Assembly: GCF_012932675.1 (NCBI RefSeq)
Contig: NZ_JAAIIF010000009.1
Coordinates: 186,001 to 250,000, forward strand
Origin: Bifidobacterium erythrocebi
GTDB taxonomy: Bacteria > Actinomycetota > Actinomycetes > Actinomycetales > Bifidobacteriaceae
Direction of reading: 5' to 3'
Length of the DNA: 64,000 nucleotides
Below, in pieces: positions 20,886 to 47,456 of the stretch. Position 1 is the stretch's first letter. Each line of letters opens with the position of its first letter. The notes beneath the pieces are model-generated. The model did no database searches. It saw only the letters and a program-made list of their open reading frames with translations, and was not told the DNA's origin. A program made the position numbers and the translations under genes.

Positions 20886-21083
20886 ACGGCTCAGTGTAAC
20901 AACAGGCGCTATCTTTGCGGGATGGGCGGGTAGATGGTCTGTGCAGGAGGGGTGGGGATGGCGGGCTTGAGTGTGCGAGGTATGACGAACCGTACGCATT
21001 TTCCTAAATCGTCCCGCAGAAAACGGGATCGATGTGATGCTTGCTCCAAAACTGGACTCCAGCTTTCAAGACGTGGGTCGCCC

Positions 21084-21545
21084 TCACTTCCTCTGCCCGC
21101 GCTTCCTGCGTTCCCTTCTGTCGATTCTACGGGATTCGATGACGCTCCCCACTAGCTCCCAAGAAGACATGAGGAACATGAGGATGGCGGCAATCGCCAT
21201 GACGGGCGAGTTGTCGAGGAACACATACATGAGGACCGGGATTAACGCGGAGGCGATGATGTCGATGGGGATATCGATGATGCTGTCGGTCTGCCATTCA
21301 AGCAGTAAGCCGACGATGTAGCATTGCGCGGGGATGAGGACCCCGAGGACGAAGAACACGAGCAGGATGTAGAAGCCGGTGATGAACGTCCCGCCCACAA
21401 GGTCGCCTATGAACTTGCTGGTGAACCAGTTGATTGCCGCAGCTATCGAGTGGCCCAGCGGGGACATGTCCAGCAGCACCAGCCCCGTGAGTACCGCGAG
21501 GAAGATGCCTATGATGATGCCACCTAGGATTACCAGAAACGTCAT
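21084..21545 (-). CDS. Small membrane protein of unknown function
   Basis: 153 residues, about four membrane segments, then a very basic C-terminal tail (RRIDRRERRKRGQRK). The ATG at 21545 has AGGAG 8 nt upstream, while the open frame continues without support to 21770. I do not recognise a family. It stands alone between recQ and the CRISPR relic. Confidence 0.65.
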   Translation of the reverse strand: MTFLVILGGIIIGIFLAVLTGLVLLDMSPLGHSIAAAINWFTSKFIGDLVGGTFITGFYILLVFFVLGVLIPAQCYIVGLLLEWQTDSIIDIPIDIIASALIPVLMYVFLDNSPVMAIAAILMFLMSSWELVGSVIESRRIDRRERRKRGQRK

Positions 21546-21755
21546 TTTGCTTTCTCCTTTTGCGTCCAAGTCAAACTGCCCGCATCCTGCATATGCGGAT
21601 GCACTTGGATAAACCGGACAAAAACGCAAATGGATTGGTACGGATCTTCGGGAACTGCGAGCGGGGAAAAGATGGCGGAGATGCCAAAGACAGTCCCGCC
21701 GAATAAGCCATGCCACATAATCTGCTTGGGGTCTTCGACGACTGTTCCTGATATA

Positions 21756-21844
21756 AAAAAATCCCCGCATGCGCGGGGAACACTACAGGCAAGTGTGCGC
21801 GGCAGACAGCGCTTTGGGATCATCCCCACATGTGCGGGGAGCAC
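21756..21844 (-). CRISPR. Two-repeat type I-E CRISPR relic, one 33-nt spacer
   Basis: Repeat at 21817-21844 is 28 nt with the type I-E core ATCCCC(G/A)C...G(C/T)GGGGA and flanks GGATC/GCAC. A second at 21756-21783 matches it over about 22 nt but its outer six bases are A-rich, as expected of the degenerate last repeat when read on the minus strand. The spacer is 33 nt (21784-21816), giving a 61-nt period. No cas gene lies in the window. The orientation is inferred from the usual type I-E repeat form (5' half ...TTCCCCGC). Confidence 0.75.
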
Positions 21845-21875
21845 GCTGCAGGCTCGTTCACTTCAATCTACACGC

Positions 21876-22037
21876 TTATCGATGCGCCGCCTGGAGCTGT
21901 TTCACATGCTGTCTGCGAATTTTCTTATCGGTGATATTGAGCGCTTGGAGCTTCTGCGTGATGCTTTCAATGTCAAGGCCGCAGGAAACAGCCTTCTCGG
22001 AGCTAATCGTCTCGAATAAGTGTTGCTTAATTTTCCG
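21876..22037 (-). pseudogene. Possible 3' remnant of a lost gene
   Basis: A 54-codon open stretch without any ATG/GTG/TTG start near its beginning, bounded by stops, reading HLFETISSEKAV then LDIESITQKLQALNITDKK and a basic end. The composition is protein-like (amphipathic helix, normal residue mix). I cannot name the family. It may be the truncated C-terminus of a gene lost when the island was rearranged, or chance. Confidence 0.25.
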
Positions 22038-22110
22038 TTAGCTACACTTATCGCGATAAGTGTAGCTTAAGTCACTCGTTAGCTACACTTATTCGGATAA
22101 ATGTAGCTAA
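22015..22110. repeat. Array of palindromes, 40-41-bp period
   Basis: A perfect 28-bp palindrome (22040-22067, half-site AGCTACACTTATCG) is followed by an imperfect 32-bp copy (22079-22110) and preceded by a half-site AATAAGTGTTGCTTAA (22015-22030). Corresponding positions are 40-41 bp apart. Looks like an operator array. AT-rich surroundings. Confidence 0.75.
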
Positions 22111-22261
22111 GCAGTATGTATAAGCTACAGATATTGATGCTTGTTCATCAGCAGAAAGACTGATTCAGGAAAGTATCATCAGCAACGACTGCTCTCAGAA
22201 GTAATTCTGCGCATTGTATCAAAGCCGTGAAGTCCGCCTTTGGCAAATCCTGTCTAATCTG

Positions 22262-22636
22262 TCATTGCCGACCATTTCGCCCTCGTCCAAACAAATGCTC
22301 GAAAAGCATGTCACCCGCTTCTTCCTCATCGAGCACGCCCATTTCGTATTCTTCGAGAATCAGATTTGTCTTGGCCATTCGTTCACGAGCATCGGGTGGA
22401 ATAACAAATGCGCCTTCTGCACTTGCATCACAGGCAATAGCGGCAGGCATCTCAATTATCTCCAAATCTCCAATACCTTCTGGCATAGTGCCGTCAGAAT
22501 ACGACACGACAATTTGCTCACCACCCCCATTCAAATCGGGAATATGGCACAAGCCGGTACCATCATTCAACTGAACATACTCACCCATTTCTGGTTCACC
22601 ATTGCGCGTAAAACGGCACATACGCAAATGTTCCAA
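22262..22636 (-). CDS. Hypothetical acidic protein
   Basis: About 119-124 residues, no membrane segment, strongly acidic in the second half (LILEEYEMGVLDEEEAGDMLFEHLFG). The start is uncertain: TTG at 22636 has AGAGGA about 9 nt upstream, ATG at 22621 has only a weak site, and an ATG at 22650 is in another frame. I recognise no family. Position inside the restriction island, just downstream of the hsdS switch, suggests an accessory or anti-restriction-type acidic protein, but that is speculation. Confidence 0.5.
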   Translation of the reverse strand: MEHLRMCRFTRNGEPEMGEYVQLNDGTGLCHIPDLNGGGEQIVVSYSDGTMPEGIGDLEIIEMPAAIACDASAEGAFVIPPDARERMAKTNLILEEYEMGVLDEEEAGDMLFEHLFGRGRNGRQ

Positions 22637-22800
22637 TATTTAGTCATCCTCTCCGATGGCTCAACCGCATACCCGCAGTCCAATCCTGCCGTATGCGTAC
22701 CGCAATTTATTTCCTGACAAAATCAGGCTACCTCAAATAGTCACTACATAGAAGCATTCTGACGTTTCGCTTAGAAACAATGCAGTAAGCAAATAGTACG

Positions 22801-23526
22801 ATGCTTCATCGTTGCACTGCACTAAATGGCTATTTACTCGAATATCTGAAGACCTATGCCAAAAATCTTTATTGCGAGTACGAGAATGACAAAAATTCAA
22901 TTTTGCCTCGTAAGTGGCGTTGGGTGAAGATTGACGAGATTGCTGATATGGTTTGTCGCGGAATTGCTCCCAAATACAGCAACGCATCTGATGAAGTTGT
23001 CCTCGGACAGACCTGCGTTCGAAACAATCTGGTTCTTGTGGAGAACGGTAGAACACATATCCCTGGCAAAATAACAGAAAAATGGCTGGAAAAATATGAT
23101 TTGCTTATTAACTCCACTGGCGTCGGTTCGCTTGGAAGAACAGCACAAGTATGGTTTGAACCTAAAAAATTAGTGGCTGATTCTCATGTAACAATTGTTC
23201 GCGCCACCGACCCTCGGTATGCCCTATATCTAGGTTTTTGGGCGTTCAAGCACGAAAAATACATTGAGTCTTTGCACACAGGCAGTACGGGACAGACAGA
23301 GCTGCCTCGCGATTATGTTAAAACAATGAGACTGGTGCTTCCGGACGATGAAACATTAGATAGATTCAACAAAATTGCCGCTCCTATTGTTGAGCACATT
23401 GTTGCGAATCAGAGGGAAAACAAATGGCTGAAAGAAATCCGTGATAGGTTGCTTCCCAAACTCATGTCAGGAGAAATTGACGTATCTAAGATTGATCTCG
23501 CTCGGCTAAATAGCCATTTAGCTTAG
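22801..23526 (+). CDS. hsdS': Inverted (silent) hsdS cassette: second target-recognition half of the type I S subunit
   Basis: Open frame of 241 codons running opposite to hsdRMS. From ALNGYLLEYLKTYAKNL on it reads as the central conserved helix plus the second recognition domain of HsdS (WRWVKIDEIADMVCRGIAPKYSN..., HTGSTGQTELPRDYVKTMRLVLP, then a C-terminal helix LKEIRDRLLPKLMSGEIDVSKI typical of HsdS ends). It has no ribosome site and its first residues are not HsdS-like. It is bounded by the 15-bp inverted repeats at 22822 and 23507, one of which lies inside hsdS, so it is the off-orientation half of an invertible specificity gene. Confidence 0.8.
   Translation: MLHRCTALNGYLLEYLKTYAKNLYCEYENDKNSILPRKWRWVKIDEIADMVCRGIAPKYSNASDEVVLGQTCVRNNLVLVENGRTHIPGKITEKWLEKYDLLINSTGVGSLGRTAQVWFEPKKLVADSHVTIVRATDPRYALYLGFWAFKHEKYIESLHTGSTGQTELPRDYVKTMRLVLPDDETLDRFNKIAAPIVEHIVANQRENKWLKEIRDRLLPKLMSGEIDVSKIDLARLNSHLA
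22822..23521. repeat. Invertible hsdS segment bounded by 15-bp inverted repeats
   Basis: CTAAATGGCTATTTA at 22822-22836 recurs as its exact reverse complement at 23507-23521. In hsdS (minus) the right copy encodes LNGYL; in the cassette (plus) the left copy encodes LNGYL in the same frame. Inverting the 670 bp between them joins hsdS to the cassette without frameshift. Confidence 0.8.
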
Positions 23527-24049
23527 CGTTTATGGCTATCTTTTGAAAAATGACCTCGAAGAATTCTTCAACCTTTGACCGAGATTCTGAATCAAGAACA
23601 GGAACTCGAAGAGCCTTAAGACGATCCGTTGACAATTTGCCAGCACCTATCCCTGTCGTTTCCAGCATAGCGGTAATATCAGGCTCAAGGGAGCGTAGCG
23701 CAAAGAAAAGATAACGGTTACTAATACCAGCCTGTTTCGAGACTAGGCACTTGATATCTTGATTATATGCAACATCCCTAGCCGCAATTACCAATGGAAT
23801 ACGCTTGAATAAACCACTACCTCTCGTAAGCAATAAGAGACTCCCTTTTCTTGCGAGCCGGCTACCTGCTTTAAGGCCTTCAGTAGTAATACATAAATCA
23901 CTTGTGCTGACCGCATCACCCACGAGAGTTTTTGCACTAATCCATGGAATATTACCGTTCCAATATATTTGAGTTTTCTTACTTGGAGTGCCTCCTGATT
24001 CAAAAGTAGCCAAATCGCCAAGAGGAATCCACTTGACCTCACATCCCAT
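23486..24049 (-). CDS. hsdS: Type I restriction specificity subunit HsdS, truncated (half-S) form
   Basis: 187 residues, about half of a normal HsdS (400-450). One target-recognition domain (VKWIPLGDLATFESGGTPSKKTQIYWNGNIPWISAKTL, a classic TRD start; later ISNRYLFFALRS and GIGAGKLSTDRLKALRVPVL), then the central conserved helix cut short as AKLNGYLAERDQS-stop. The ATG at 24049 overlaps the hsdM stop by 11 bp. In the present orientation the S subunit has only one recognition domain; flipping the segment at 22822-23521 would extend it by about 223 cassette residues plus about 29 residues ending at 22733. Confidence 0.85.
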   Translation of the reverse strand: MGCEVKWIPLGDLATFESGGTPSKKTQIYWNGNIPWISAKTLVGDAVSTSDLCITTEGLKAGSRLARKGSLLLLTRGSGLFKRIPLVIAARDVAYNQDIKCLVSKQAGISNRYLFFALRSLEPDITAMLETTGIGAGKLSTDRLKALRVPVLDSESRSKVEEFFEVIFQKIAINAKLNGYLAERDQS

Positions 24050-31805: not shown

Positions 31806-31943
31806 GCTACTTTACATTTCCTACCAATGCTACTTTACATTTCTTACCATCCCTACTTTACATTTCTTACCAATCCTACTTGACACTTTTTACCATTCCT
31901 ACTTTACATTTCCTACCGTCGCTACTTTACATTTTCTACCTAG
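31806..31943. repeat. Six tandem 23-bp iterons upstream of the DUF4143 ATPase
   Basis: Units start at 31806, 31829, 31852, 31875, 31898 and 31921, an exact 23-bp period. Consensus (plus strand) (G/C)CTACTTTACATTT(C/T) then TACCAAT/C; the fourth unit is the most diverged (TTGACACTTTT). The block ends 18 bp before the ATPase start codon, so the promoter lies in or beyond it. In the sense strand each unit reads GGTAGGAAATGTAAAGTAG, that is AGGA-ATG-TAA, a start directly followed by a stop. Confidence 0.85.
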
Positions 31944-45025: not shown

Positions 45026-45043
45026 CTACCAACCGATTGGTAG
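45026..45043. promoter_or_regulatory. TetR operator between GH3 and TetR genes
   Basis: CTACCAACCGATTGGTAG: 7-bp arms CTACCAA/TTGGTAG. It shares the core ACCAA..TTGGT with the palindrome upstream of the second GH3 gene at 54920. Confidence 0.7.
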
Positions 45044-45154: not shown

Positions 45155-45733
45155 ATGGGCAACAACGACACGGATCGCAGAGGCGATATCCTCGACGCGG
45201 CGGTCGAATGCTTCGGCACACTTGGCTATTACGGAACGTCACTGCAGAAGATAGCCACCAAGGTCGGGCTTACCAAGGCGGGGGTGCTGCATTACGTAGG
45301 CAGCAAGGAAGGGCTGCTCACCACGGTGCTCGACGAGATGTACGACCGCGAGACCGAGGACGCGACCGCCGACATGGTGCGCGAAAACGACCCGCTCATC
45401 GCCGACCTGTGGCGCAGGATCGTGGCCGTCAACGCCAAGCGCCCGAAGCTGGTGCACATGTTCTCCACATTGAGCGCCGAGGCCCTGGACCCCAACCACC
45501 CCGCGCACGACTACTTCGCCGCACGCGAGGAGCATGTGGTGGATGTGGCGCGCAACATCCGCTGGCATGTGCCCGACGGCGTCGATGCCGAACGGATGCT
45601 GCGCGCCGGATTCGCCATGATGGACGGCGTGCAGCTGCGCTGGCTGCGCAAGCCCGGCCAGGATCTCAACGCCATGTGGGCCGAATGCGAGAACGTGCTC
45701 TTCCCCCTGCCGCTGTGGGACGGCTGCCGGTAG
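45155..45733 (+). CDS. TetR-family regulator, paired with GH3 beta-glucosidase
   Basis: 192 residues. N-terminal helix-turn-helix ILDAAVECFGTLGYYGTSLQKIATKVGLTKAGVLHYVGSKEGLL; the ligand domain ends in an unusual MLRAGFAMMDGVQLRWLRKPGQDL...VLFPLPLWDGCR that is nearly identical at the end to the other TetR at 57397. The AGGAG box is about 10 nt before ATG. Divergent from the GH3 gene; likely represses it until a sugar is bound. Confidence 0.88.
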   Translation: MGNNDTDRRGDILDAAVECFGTLGYYGTSLQKIATKVGLTKAGVLHYVGSKEGLLTTVLDEMYDRETEDATADMVRENDPLIADLWRRIVAVNAKRPKLVHMFSTLSAEALDPNHPAHDYFAAREEHVVDVARNIRWHVPDGVDAERMLRAGFAMMDGVQLRWLRKPGQDLNAMWAECENVLFPLPLWDGCR

Positions 45734-45836
45734 CAAGCCCTATCCCACCCCGTGGCCTATCCCTCTCCAGCGACCCATTCCTCCGGTGGTCTACCTCTCC
45801 CCTGATGCCCCATTTCTCCCCCGACGTCCTATTCCT

Positions 45837-46637
45837 CCAGTGGCTGGATAAATCCGGACACTAAGAGACCTCCCAGCGGGATAAATCCCCCAGTGACTGG
45901 ATAAAACAGGACGCTGAGAACTCCCTCAGCGGAAAGAAACATCCAACCACTGGGAAATCAGGACGCTGAGCCCCCCCCCGAAGGAAGAAACATCCAGTCA
46001 CTGGAGGAATCCGAACGCCAGAAAACCCCTCAGAGGTAAAATCCACCCATTCACTGGAGGAATACGGGCTCTAAGAGGCCGCTCAGCGGGAACAAACCTC
46101 CACTCACTGGGAAATCCGGACACTAAGAGGCCCTTCCGCGGAACAAATTCCCAGTGACTGGATAAAACCGGACTGCAGGAAACCCCTTAGAAGGAAATCC
46201 ATCCACCCACTGGAGGAATCCGGACACTAGGAGACCGCTCAGCGGGAACAAACCTCCACTCACTGGGAAATCTGGACGCTAAGTAAAGCCTAAGGGGAAA
46301 GAAACATCCAGCCACTGGGAAATCGGGATGCTAAAGGGCCGCTCAGCGGAACGAAATCCCAGCCACTGGATAAAACGGGACGATGAGAGGCCTCTCAGGG
46401 GGAGATATATCCAGCCACTGGATGAATCAGGACTCTAAGAGGCCGTTCAGCGAGAAAAATATCCATTCACTGGATAAAACGGGACGATGAAAGGCCTCCC
46501 AGAGGACAGAAACATCCAGCCACTGGATAAAACCGGACGCTAAGGGCTCCCTCAGAGGGAAGAAACACCCAGCCACTGGGAAATCAGGACTCTAAGAGGC
46601 CGTTCAGCAAGAAAAATATCCAGCCACTGGGAAATCA
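45837..46637. repeat. Tandem array of about 16 units of 51-54 bp
   Basis: The anchor word (C)ACTGG(A/G) recurs with ends at 45846, 45900, 45953, 46004, 46057, 46110, 46161, 46213, 46265, 46318, 46369, 46421, 46473, 46526, 46579 and 46630. Each unit also has (G/C)GGAC..CTAAGAGG, a small stem such as CCGC-TCA-GCGG, then GGGAA.AAA. Unit-length drift (indels of one or two bases) excludes coding. The last unit contains the SDR stop codon. Weaker CTCC-rich copies may extend left to about 45760. Nothing else is in 45734-46634. Confidence 0.9.
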
Positions 46638-47456
46638 GGACGCAGCGCGGGACTTGTCCTGCAAGTCGCCGAACACAGGCGTGGCCAGGCCGAAGCCGCC
46701 GCACACCTCAAGAATCTGGCCGGTGGTGAACCGCGACTCGTCCGAGGCGAAATACAGCACCGCGTTCGCGATCTCCTCAGGCGTGGCCATACGACGGATA
46801 GGCGTGTGATGCAGGAACATTTCGCGGAATTCATCGTTCAGCGAATTGCGCACGGCATCGGTGGCGGTCATGCCCGGCAGCACCGCGTTGCAGCGGATGT
46901 TCTTGCGCGCCTCGTGCACGGCGATGAGCTTGGTCAGATAGTTGATGGCCGCCTTGGACGTGCCGTAGCCGATCTGCGAGATGTCCGGCACGGCACCGCC
47001 GATCGACGAAATGTTGATGATGCTGCCGGACTTGCGTTCCGCCATATGCTTCAGTGCCGCCTGGGACGCGATGAATACGGACTTGAGATTGACATCCACC
47101 GTGTCGATGAACTCCTGCGGGTCGGTGCGCTCGATGTCGAGATCCTTGGCGGGATTGGACGTGCCGAAATTATTGACAAGCACATCGATGCGGCCCTCGT
47201 TCGCCACGACCTCGTCCACGGCGGACGTATACGTCTCGTCCTTGGAGGCGTCGTTGTAGACGAACTTCACCGTTCCGGGCACGCCCGCCTTGGCGATCTC
47301 GTCGATTTTCGCCTGCGCGCGCTGCGCGTTGCGGGCCGCCATGTAGACCGTCGCGCCTTCCTCGGCGAAACGCTTCACGATCGCGTATCCGATACCCCTT
47401 GTGGAAGCGGTGACCATGGCCACCTTGCCGTTCAGACGTCCTGCGCTATCAGTCAT
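46635..47456 (-). CDS. Short-chain dehydrogenase/reductase (SDR)
   Basis: 273 residues. Rossmann N-terminus VAMVTASTRGIGYAI (TGxxxGIG with Ala for Gly), NNFGTSNP (NNAG equivalent), catalytic Ser in INISSIGG and Tyr-x-x-x-Lys in YGTSKAA. Typical classical SDR using NAD(P)H; substrate not deducible. The ATG at 47456 has AAAGGAG 7 nt upstream. Its stop codon lies in the last unit of the tandem array, so the C-terminus (KSRAAS) may be of repeat origin. Divergent from the glycerate kinase. Confidence 0.88.
   Translation of the reverse strand: MTDSAGRLNGKVAMVTASTRGIGYAIVKRFAEEGATVYMAARNAQRAQAKIDEIAKAGVPGTVKFVYNDASKDETYTSAVDEVVANEGRIDVLVNNFGTSNPAKDLDIERTDPQEFIDTVDVNLKSVFIASQAALKHMAERKSGSIINISSIGGAVPDISQIGYGTSKAAINYLTKLIAVHEARKNIRCNAVLPGMTATDAVRNSLNDEFREMFLHHTPIRRMATPEEIANAVLYFASDESRFTTGQILEVCGGFGLATPVFGDLQDKSRAAS

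Follow-up and report, generated by a model that had tools for sequence, protein, structure and literature searches.

A tandem array in Bifidobacterium erythrocebi, located at positions 45837-46630 of the window (the whole 64,000-nucleotide stretch analysed here), belongs to a family of intergenic arrays carried by at least 14 of the 112 Bifidobacterium species surveyed. The arrays share one architecture, are conserved in place between species, occupy a restricted part of the chromosome and are polar with respect to replication. We propose that they may be landmarks on double-stranded DNA. Each unit would offer a site A (CCA-N5-TGG) and a weaker site B (CGCT..AGCG), with all A sites facing one side of the helix, and a dimeric DNA-binding protein would occupy the sites cooperatively to build a polar nucleoprotein block, typically of five sites. 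Such blocks would stand in the origin-proximal 60% of both replichores, in one orientation relative to replication, and would probably serve the chromosome at large, by organising or timing its segregation or division, rather than control neighbouring genes. We infer the protein, its cooperative binding and its cellular role, and for the reading as a whole we see the balance as even.

Anatomy of the array and design of its unit

The array comprises 16 copies of CCA-N5-TGG, spaced by 51-53 bp, between the converging genes for a TetR-family regulator and a short-chain dehydrogenase (SDR). TRF reported a period of 52 with 15.3 copies, together with a 208-bp super-period equal to four units, and no chain of four or more sites appeared in 20 base-composition shuffles of the window. 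An earlier, sequence-only reading had described about 16 non-coding tandem units, the last of which supplies the SDR stop codon, and all of this was borne out: the stop codon (46635-46637) lies inside the flank of the last unit. The same reading took the array for the largest non-coding stretch of the window; a crude gene caller left two gaps of greater length, and several ORFs lie in one of them. The features are as follows, with the strand given where one was assigned.

45155..45733, + strand: TetR-family regulator gene, with the array in its 3' flank in several Bifidobacterium species
45797..45838, + strand: C/T-rich short repeat of about 19 bp (TRF), directly ahead of the array and possibly a decayed continuation of it
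45832..46643, + strand (A/C-rich strand): whole array
45837..45847: core 1, CCAGTGGCTGG
45890..45900: core 2, CCAGTGACTGG
45912..45931: second dyad (B), CGCTGA-N8-TCAGCG, the clearest case in the window, about midway between cores
45943..45953: core 3, CCAACCACTGG
45994..46004: core 4, CCAGTCACTGG
46047..46057: core 5, CCATTCACTGG
46100..46110: core 6, CCACTCACTGG
46151..46161: core 7, CCAGTGACTGG
46203..46213: core 8, CCACCCACTGG
46256..46266: core 9, CCACTCACTGG
46308..46318: core 10, CCAGCCACTGG
46359..46369: core 11, CCAGCCACTGG
46411..46421: core 12, CCAGCCACTGG
46463..46473: core 13, CCATTCACTGG
46516..46526: core 14, CCAGCCACTGG
46569..46579: core 15, CCAGCCACTGG
46620..46630: core 16, CCAGCCACTGG, the last site, with a flank that reaches into the SDR stop codon
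46635..47456, - strand: SDR gene, converging on the array

A fixed element in every unit had also been described and does exist, although it is not the word CACTGG, which is the commonest right half of the gapped palindrome and occurs in 13 of the 16 units; CCA-N5-TGG is found in all 16. Over 67 units from eight arrays of two species, five of the six bases of this palindrome were invariant and it was complete in 66 units, with the caveat that the CCA/TGG bases were themselves partly used to pick the arrays. Dyad B is degenerate in most other units of the window. In the family at large this second dyad (CGCT..AGCG) lies about half a unit from site A, and it is strong in the variant found in genome G066.

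Unit statistics were drawn from 194 units of exactly 53 bp at 48 loci. Outside the search motif, several bases are close to invariant (A16 in 186 units, C23 in 191, A39 in 178 and A48 in 187, i.e., 92-98%), whereas their mirror positions are less conserved (e.g., G42 in 146/194 and T17 in 143/194), and the unit thus has a direction. Gaps between successive sites (n=273) measured 53 bp in 194 cases, 52 bp in 50, 54 bp in 14 and 51 bp in 12. Five turns of B-DNA correspond to 52.5 bp, so a spacing of 52-53 bp would set all A sites on one face of the helix. This helical phasing, taken together with the fixed bases outside the core, argues for recognition of duplex DNA by a protein. The commonest number of sites was five, seen in 24 of 48 arrays (the window's genome excluded), and the 16 units of the window seem to descend from five sites by a recent local expansion. 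Species differ symmetrically in the motif, with TCCA-N5-TGGA in some and GCCA-N5-TGGC in others, and within the adolescentis group no half-site covariation was detected (194 units, 48 loci); symmetric change between species without covariation among units fits recognition by a protein better than base-paired stems.

Distribution and conserved places

Searches with a 53-position sequence profile of the unit, one genome per species, gave matches in 11 of 112 Bifidobacterium species; in the window's own genome they recovered five arrays, at four places. A three-site pattern search was positive in 14 of 112, with at most one match of the reversed pattern per genome. Nine species have the GCCA-N5-TGGC version; six of these are outside the 14, and several have just one or two matches. 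No arrays were detected in about 90 of the 112 species, and hence the genus does not depend on the system. Their number per genome is uneven, with five in the window's genome, about 17 in G099 and one in G059. In G099, pairs of array hits of equal score at 2251-2254 kb and 2276-2278 kb (L091, L092) recur at an offset of exactly 24,388 bp, which hints at tandem duplication or at a repeat in the assembly. In a scan of 297 genomes of the order, matches in genera other than Bifidobacterium were no commoner than those of the reversed control, and those shown resemble coding sequence. Four viral contigs fit the pattern, but none of their chains exceeds two complete sites. The open-access literature yielded nothing relevant on a bifidobacterial repeat of such kind.

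The place of the array is kept between species. Behind the orthologous TetR gene we have identified 16 sites in the window, five each in G062, G024, B. kashiwanohense and B. sp. N4G05, four in B. ruminantium and two in B. moukalabense. G066 likewise has five sites there, with flanks of the form TGCCA-N5-TGGCA, a motif altogether unlike the flanks of the others. Orthologous arrays share just about 60-65% identity between their units. The close relative B. merycicum has no array behind its TetR gene; other inverted repeats, of the TCAGACAGAA type, are found in its stead (L136 5577-5790). In B. kashiwanohense and N4G05 the gene after the array is oriented opposite to the SDR gene. As the array stays behind the TetR gene where SDR is not next, it is independent of the SDR gene, and the earlier suggestion that it grew from the 3' end of that gene does not hold. 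Place is also conserved at the pyrophosphatase/MntP spacer of G062 and G083, and the window's genome, G024 and G069 have arrays whose flanking genes are of similar size.

All 53 arrays with a chain of at least four sites avoid called genes, the calls near arrays coming from a simple codon-score script. The adjacent genes have diverse, unrelated housekeeping functions with no common theme, and the function of flanking genes was rejected as an explanation on account of this diversity. Arrays on both sides of one gene were seen in the window's genome and around a gene of equal length in G062 (L012 2732-3685 and L096 3522-4475); the L012 gene had no Pfam match.

Chromosome layout and polarity

In the seven closed genomes checked, dnaA starts at base 49-177. 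Array places were defined in eight closed genomes as grouped hits with at least two hits or a site chain, after isolated hits and the duplicated 24-kb copy had been dropped. All 58 lie within 0.60 of the origin-terminus distance (KS p 5e-9), in lists that depend on the thresholds and on the chosen grouping and in which many arrays are orthologues and so not independent; the origin bias for 38 arrays of five lineages has p 1e-6. Near the terminus there are isolated one- or two-site matches, at 1177.9 kb in G069, 1214.8 kb in G083 and 1128.6 kb in G099.

The AT skew of the array agrees with its replichore in 41 of 42 cases and the profile strand does so in 51 of 55: on the left arm the A/C-rich strand is the top one, and on the right arm it is the bottom one. 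Even where tandem neighbouring genes are oriented against the replichore, the polarity of the array stays with the replichore (6/6). Arrays are skewed in the same direction as other intergenic DNA of the same loci but more strongly, by a factor of about 4-6 for AT and 2-3 for GC. Mutation bias may contribute to the polarity; that strand-biased mutation suffices to explain it is not obvious. Placement between unrelated genes, exclusion from the terminus and polarity together point to a role at the level of the chromosome. Of the earlier suggestions for the array, a satellite bound by a nucleoid protein or repressor is the one best supported in kind, considering the invariant dyad bases, the five-turn spacing, the intergenic location and the chromosome-scale layout, whereas a local repressor role is unlikely because the flanking genes are unrelated. 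A Noc-like ParB paralogue as the binder was rejected, since array-bearing genomes mostly have one ParB, like the rest of the genus.

Alternative readings and related systems

The sequence-only reading had placed selection on a 4-bp hairpin with compensatory changes and considered a structured RNA. In the 15 units of the window assessed for the stem CCGC-TCA-GCGG, 77% of cells pair, with no covariation measure above the shuffled control, and over 67 units the figure for this stem is 50%, exactly the shuffled mean. RNAalifold on these 67 units paired only CCA with TGG and found no pair changed on both sides, Watson-Crick enrichment was absent at either dyad across 194 units of 48 loci, and an Rfam search at E<=1 gave no match near the gathering score, its one sub-threshold match lying outside the array. 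Compensatory change thus found no support in the aligned units, and a structured RNA is not supported, as its paired columns do not covary. Arrays might still be transcribed into hairpins that act as bidirectional terminators or stabilise mRNA 3' ends, to which we give a small chance. As single strands, both are predicted to fold with much greater stability than dinucleotide shuffles (z -8.0 and -11.5), six terminator-like sites were counted against 2.2 expected, and the B dyad of the G066 variant is a strong hairpin. However, any run of repeated palindromes would be predicted to fold strongly on either strand, and the missing covariation again speaks against selected stems; convergent, tandem and divergent gene pairs all flank arrays, polarity is set by the replichore and not by gene direction, and a five-turn spacing would have no reason in RNA. 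A local operator role, serving the neighbouring TetR regulator or the genes next to it, is most improbable: in several species the array does follow the TetR gene immediately, but dozens of other arrays adjoin unrelated housekeeping genes, some TetR genes have no array, and the TetR promoter region carries a different palindrome, ACCAA-N4-TTGGT, which also lies near this gene in four other species.

The main rival is a selfish or neutral intergenic satellite, spreading and expanding through slippage and unequal crossing-over and skewed by strand-biased mutation, which we consider somewhat unlikely. It would account for the super-period, for a site number of 16 in the window where the orthologous place in other species holds 2-5, or none in B. 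merycicum, for units that are often more alike within one array than between arrays, and for the patchy array numbers of different species. It accounts poorly for bases outside the search motif and a 52-53 bp spacing that stay nearly fixed while the rest has diverged to about 60% identity, for places kept across species, for the total lack of arrays in the terminus-proximal 40% and for a skew several-fold above the intergenic background. Were the satellite neutral, its retention of spacing, location and a few bases from species to species, but of little else, would still make it unusual among evolving repeats. The super-period and the excess of sites over relatives show local duplication, which bears on the recombination hot spot considered earlier but looks like a consequence. 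Non-autonomous elements of the REP/BIME/REPIN kind, mobilised by a Y1 (RAYT) transposase, could derive their replication polarity from single-strand transposition; they would be palindromic, intergenic and polar, with many places in some genomes. We regard this as improbable, as the Y1 transposase is absent from 8 of 11 array-bearing genomes, the window's included, which led us to reject the RAYT link, the arrays are long, tandem and phased (4-16 sites) rather than doublets, orthologous places are kept although the sequence has diverged, and plasmid and phage collections contained no copy at blastn sensitivity.

The landmark reading can be set beside known chromosomal sites. SlmA and Noc sites, the nucleoid-occlusion sites, are mostly scattered singles (24-52 SBS and about 70 NBS), and the factor bound to them keeps FtsZ from assembling over the nucleoid. 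KOPS, RacA ram and RTP/Ter sites are polar or origin-clustered and are used in segregation or fork control; the arrays resemble them in being polar or origin-clustered, and differ in motif, in their phased multi-site build and in clade. The MIRU/VNTR minisatellites of Actinobacteria consist, like the arrays, of intergenic units of about 50 bp in tandem and vary in copy number, as the arrays do between species, but in the arrays conservation is poor for the unit sequence and not for spacing and dyad, and polarity and terminus exclusion extend over the chromosome. REPINs come as doublets and are linked to RAYT transposases (PMC3116915); the arrays are likewise intergenic, palindromic and present in several copies per genome, yet they are phased and mostly occur without RAYT. 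SlmA sites of E. coli and Noc sites of B. subtilis are chromosomal palindromes under-represented in the terminus region (PMC4726725). The arrays share dyad symmetry (CCA-N5-TGG in nearly every unit) and depletion from the terminus region with them, and may be comparable in logic, although we do not claim that they are such sites: they are intergenic and polar and come in phased groups of about five, and nearly all genomes that carry them lack a Noc-type ParB paralogue.

In its most specific form, which we put forward tentatively, the landmark reading would describe a bifidobacterial chromosome-marking system of phased, replication-polar and terminus-excluded arrays, with a reader protein that organises segregation or times division. 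Division regulators in this phylum are poorly known (see PMC7118173). If the proposal is true, these clade-specific, polar, phased and origin-proximal sites would offer a direct handle on the link between chromosome layout and division in these bacteria.

Other repeats were observed in the window. The palindrome TACCAACCGATTGGTA (45027-45042), between the divergent TetR and GH3 genes, is likely a TetR operator. An AT-rich tandem array at 31807-31940 has a 23-bp unit, CTACTTTACATTTCCTACCATTC, in about 5.8 copies (TRF). The 3-kb stretch at 21000-24038 is possibly acquired DNA; its codon score is poor for the genome, and it holds several ORFs (120-240 aa) and, at 22012, a repeat of 41 bp.
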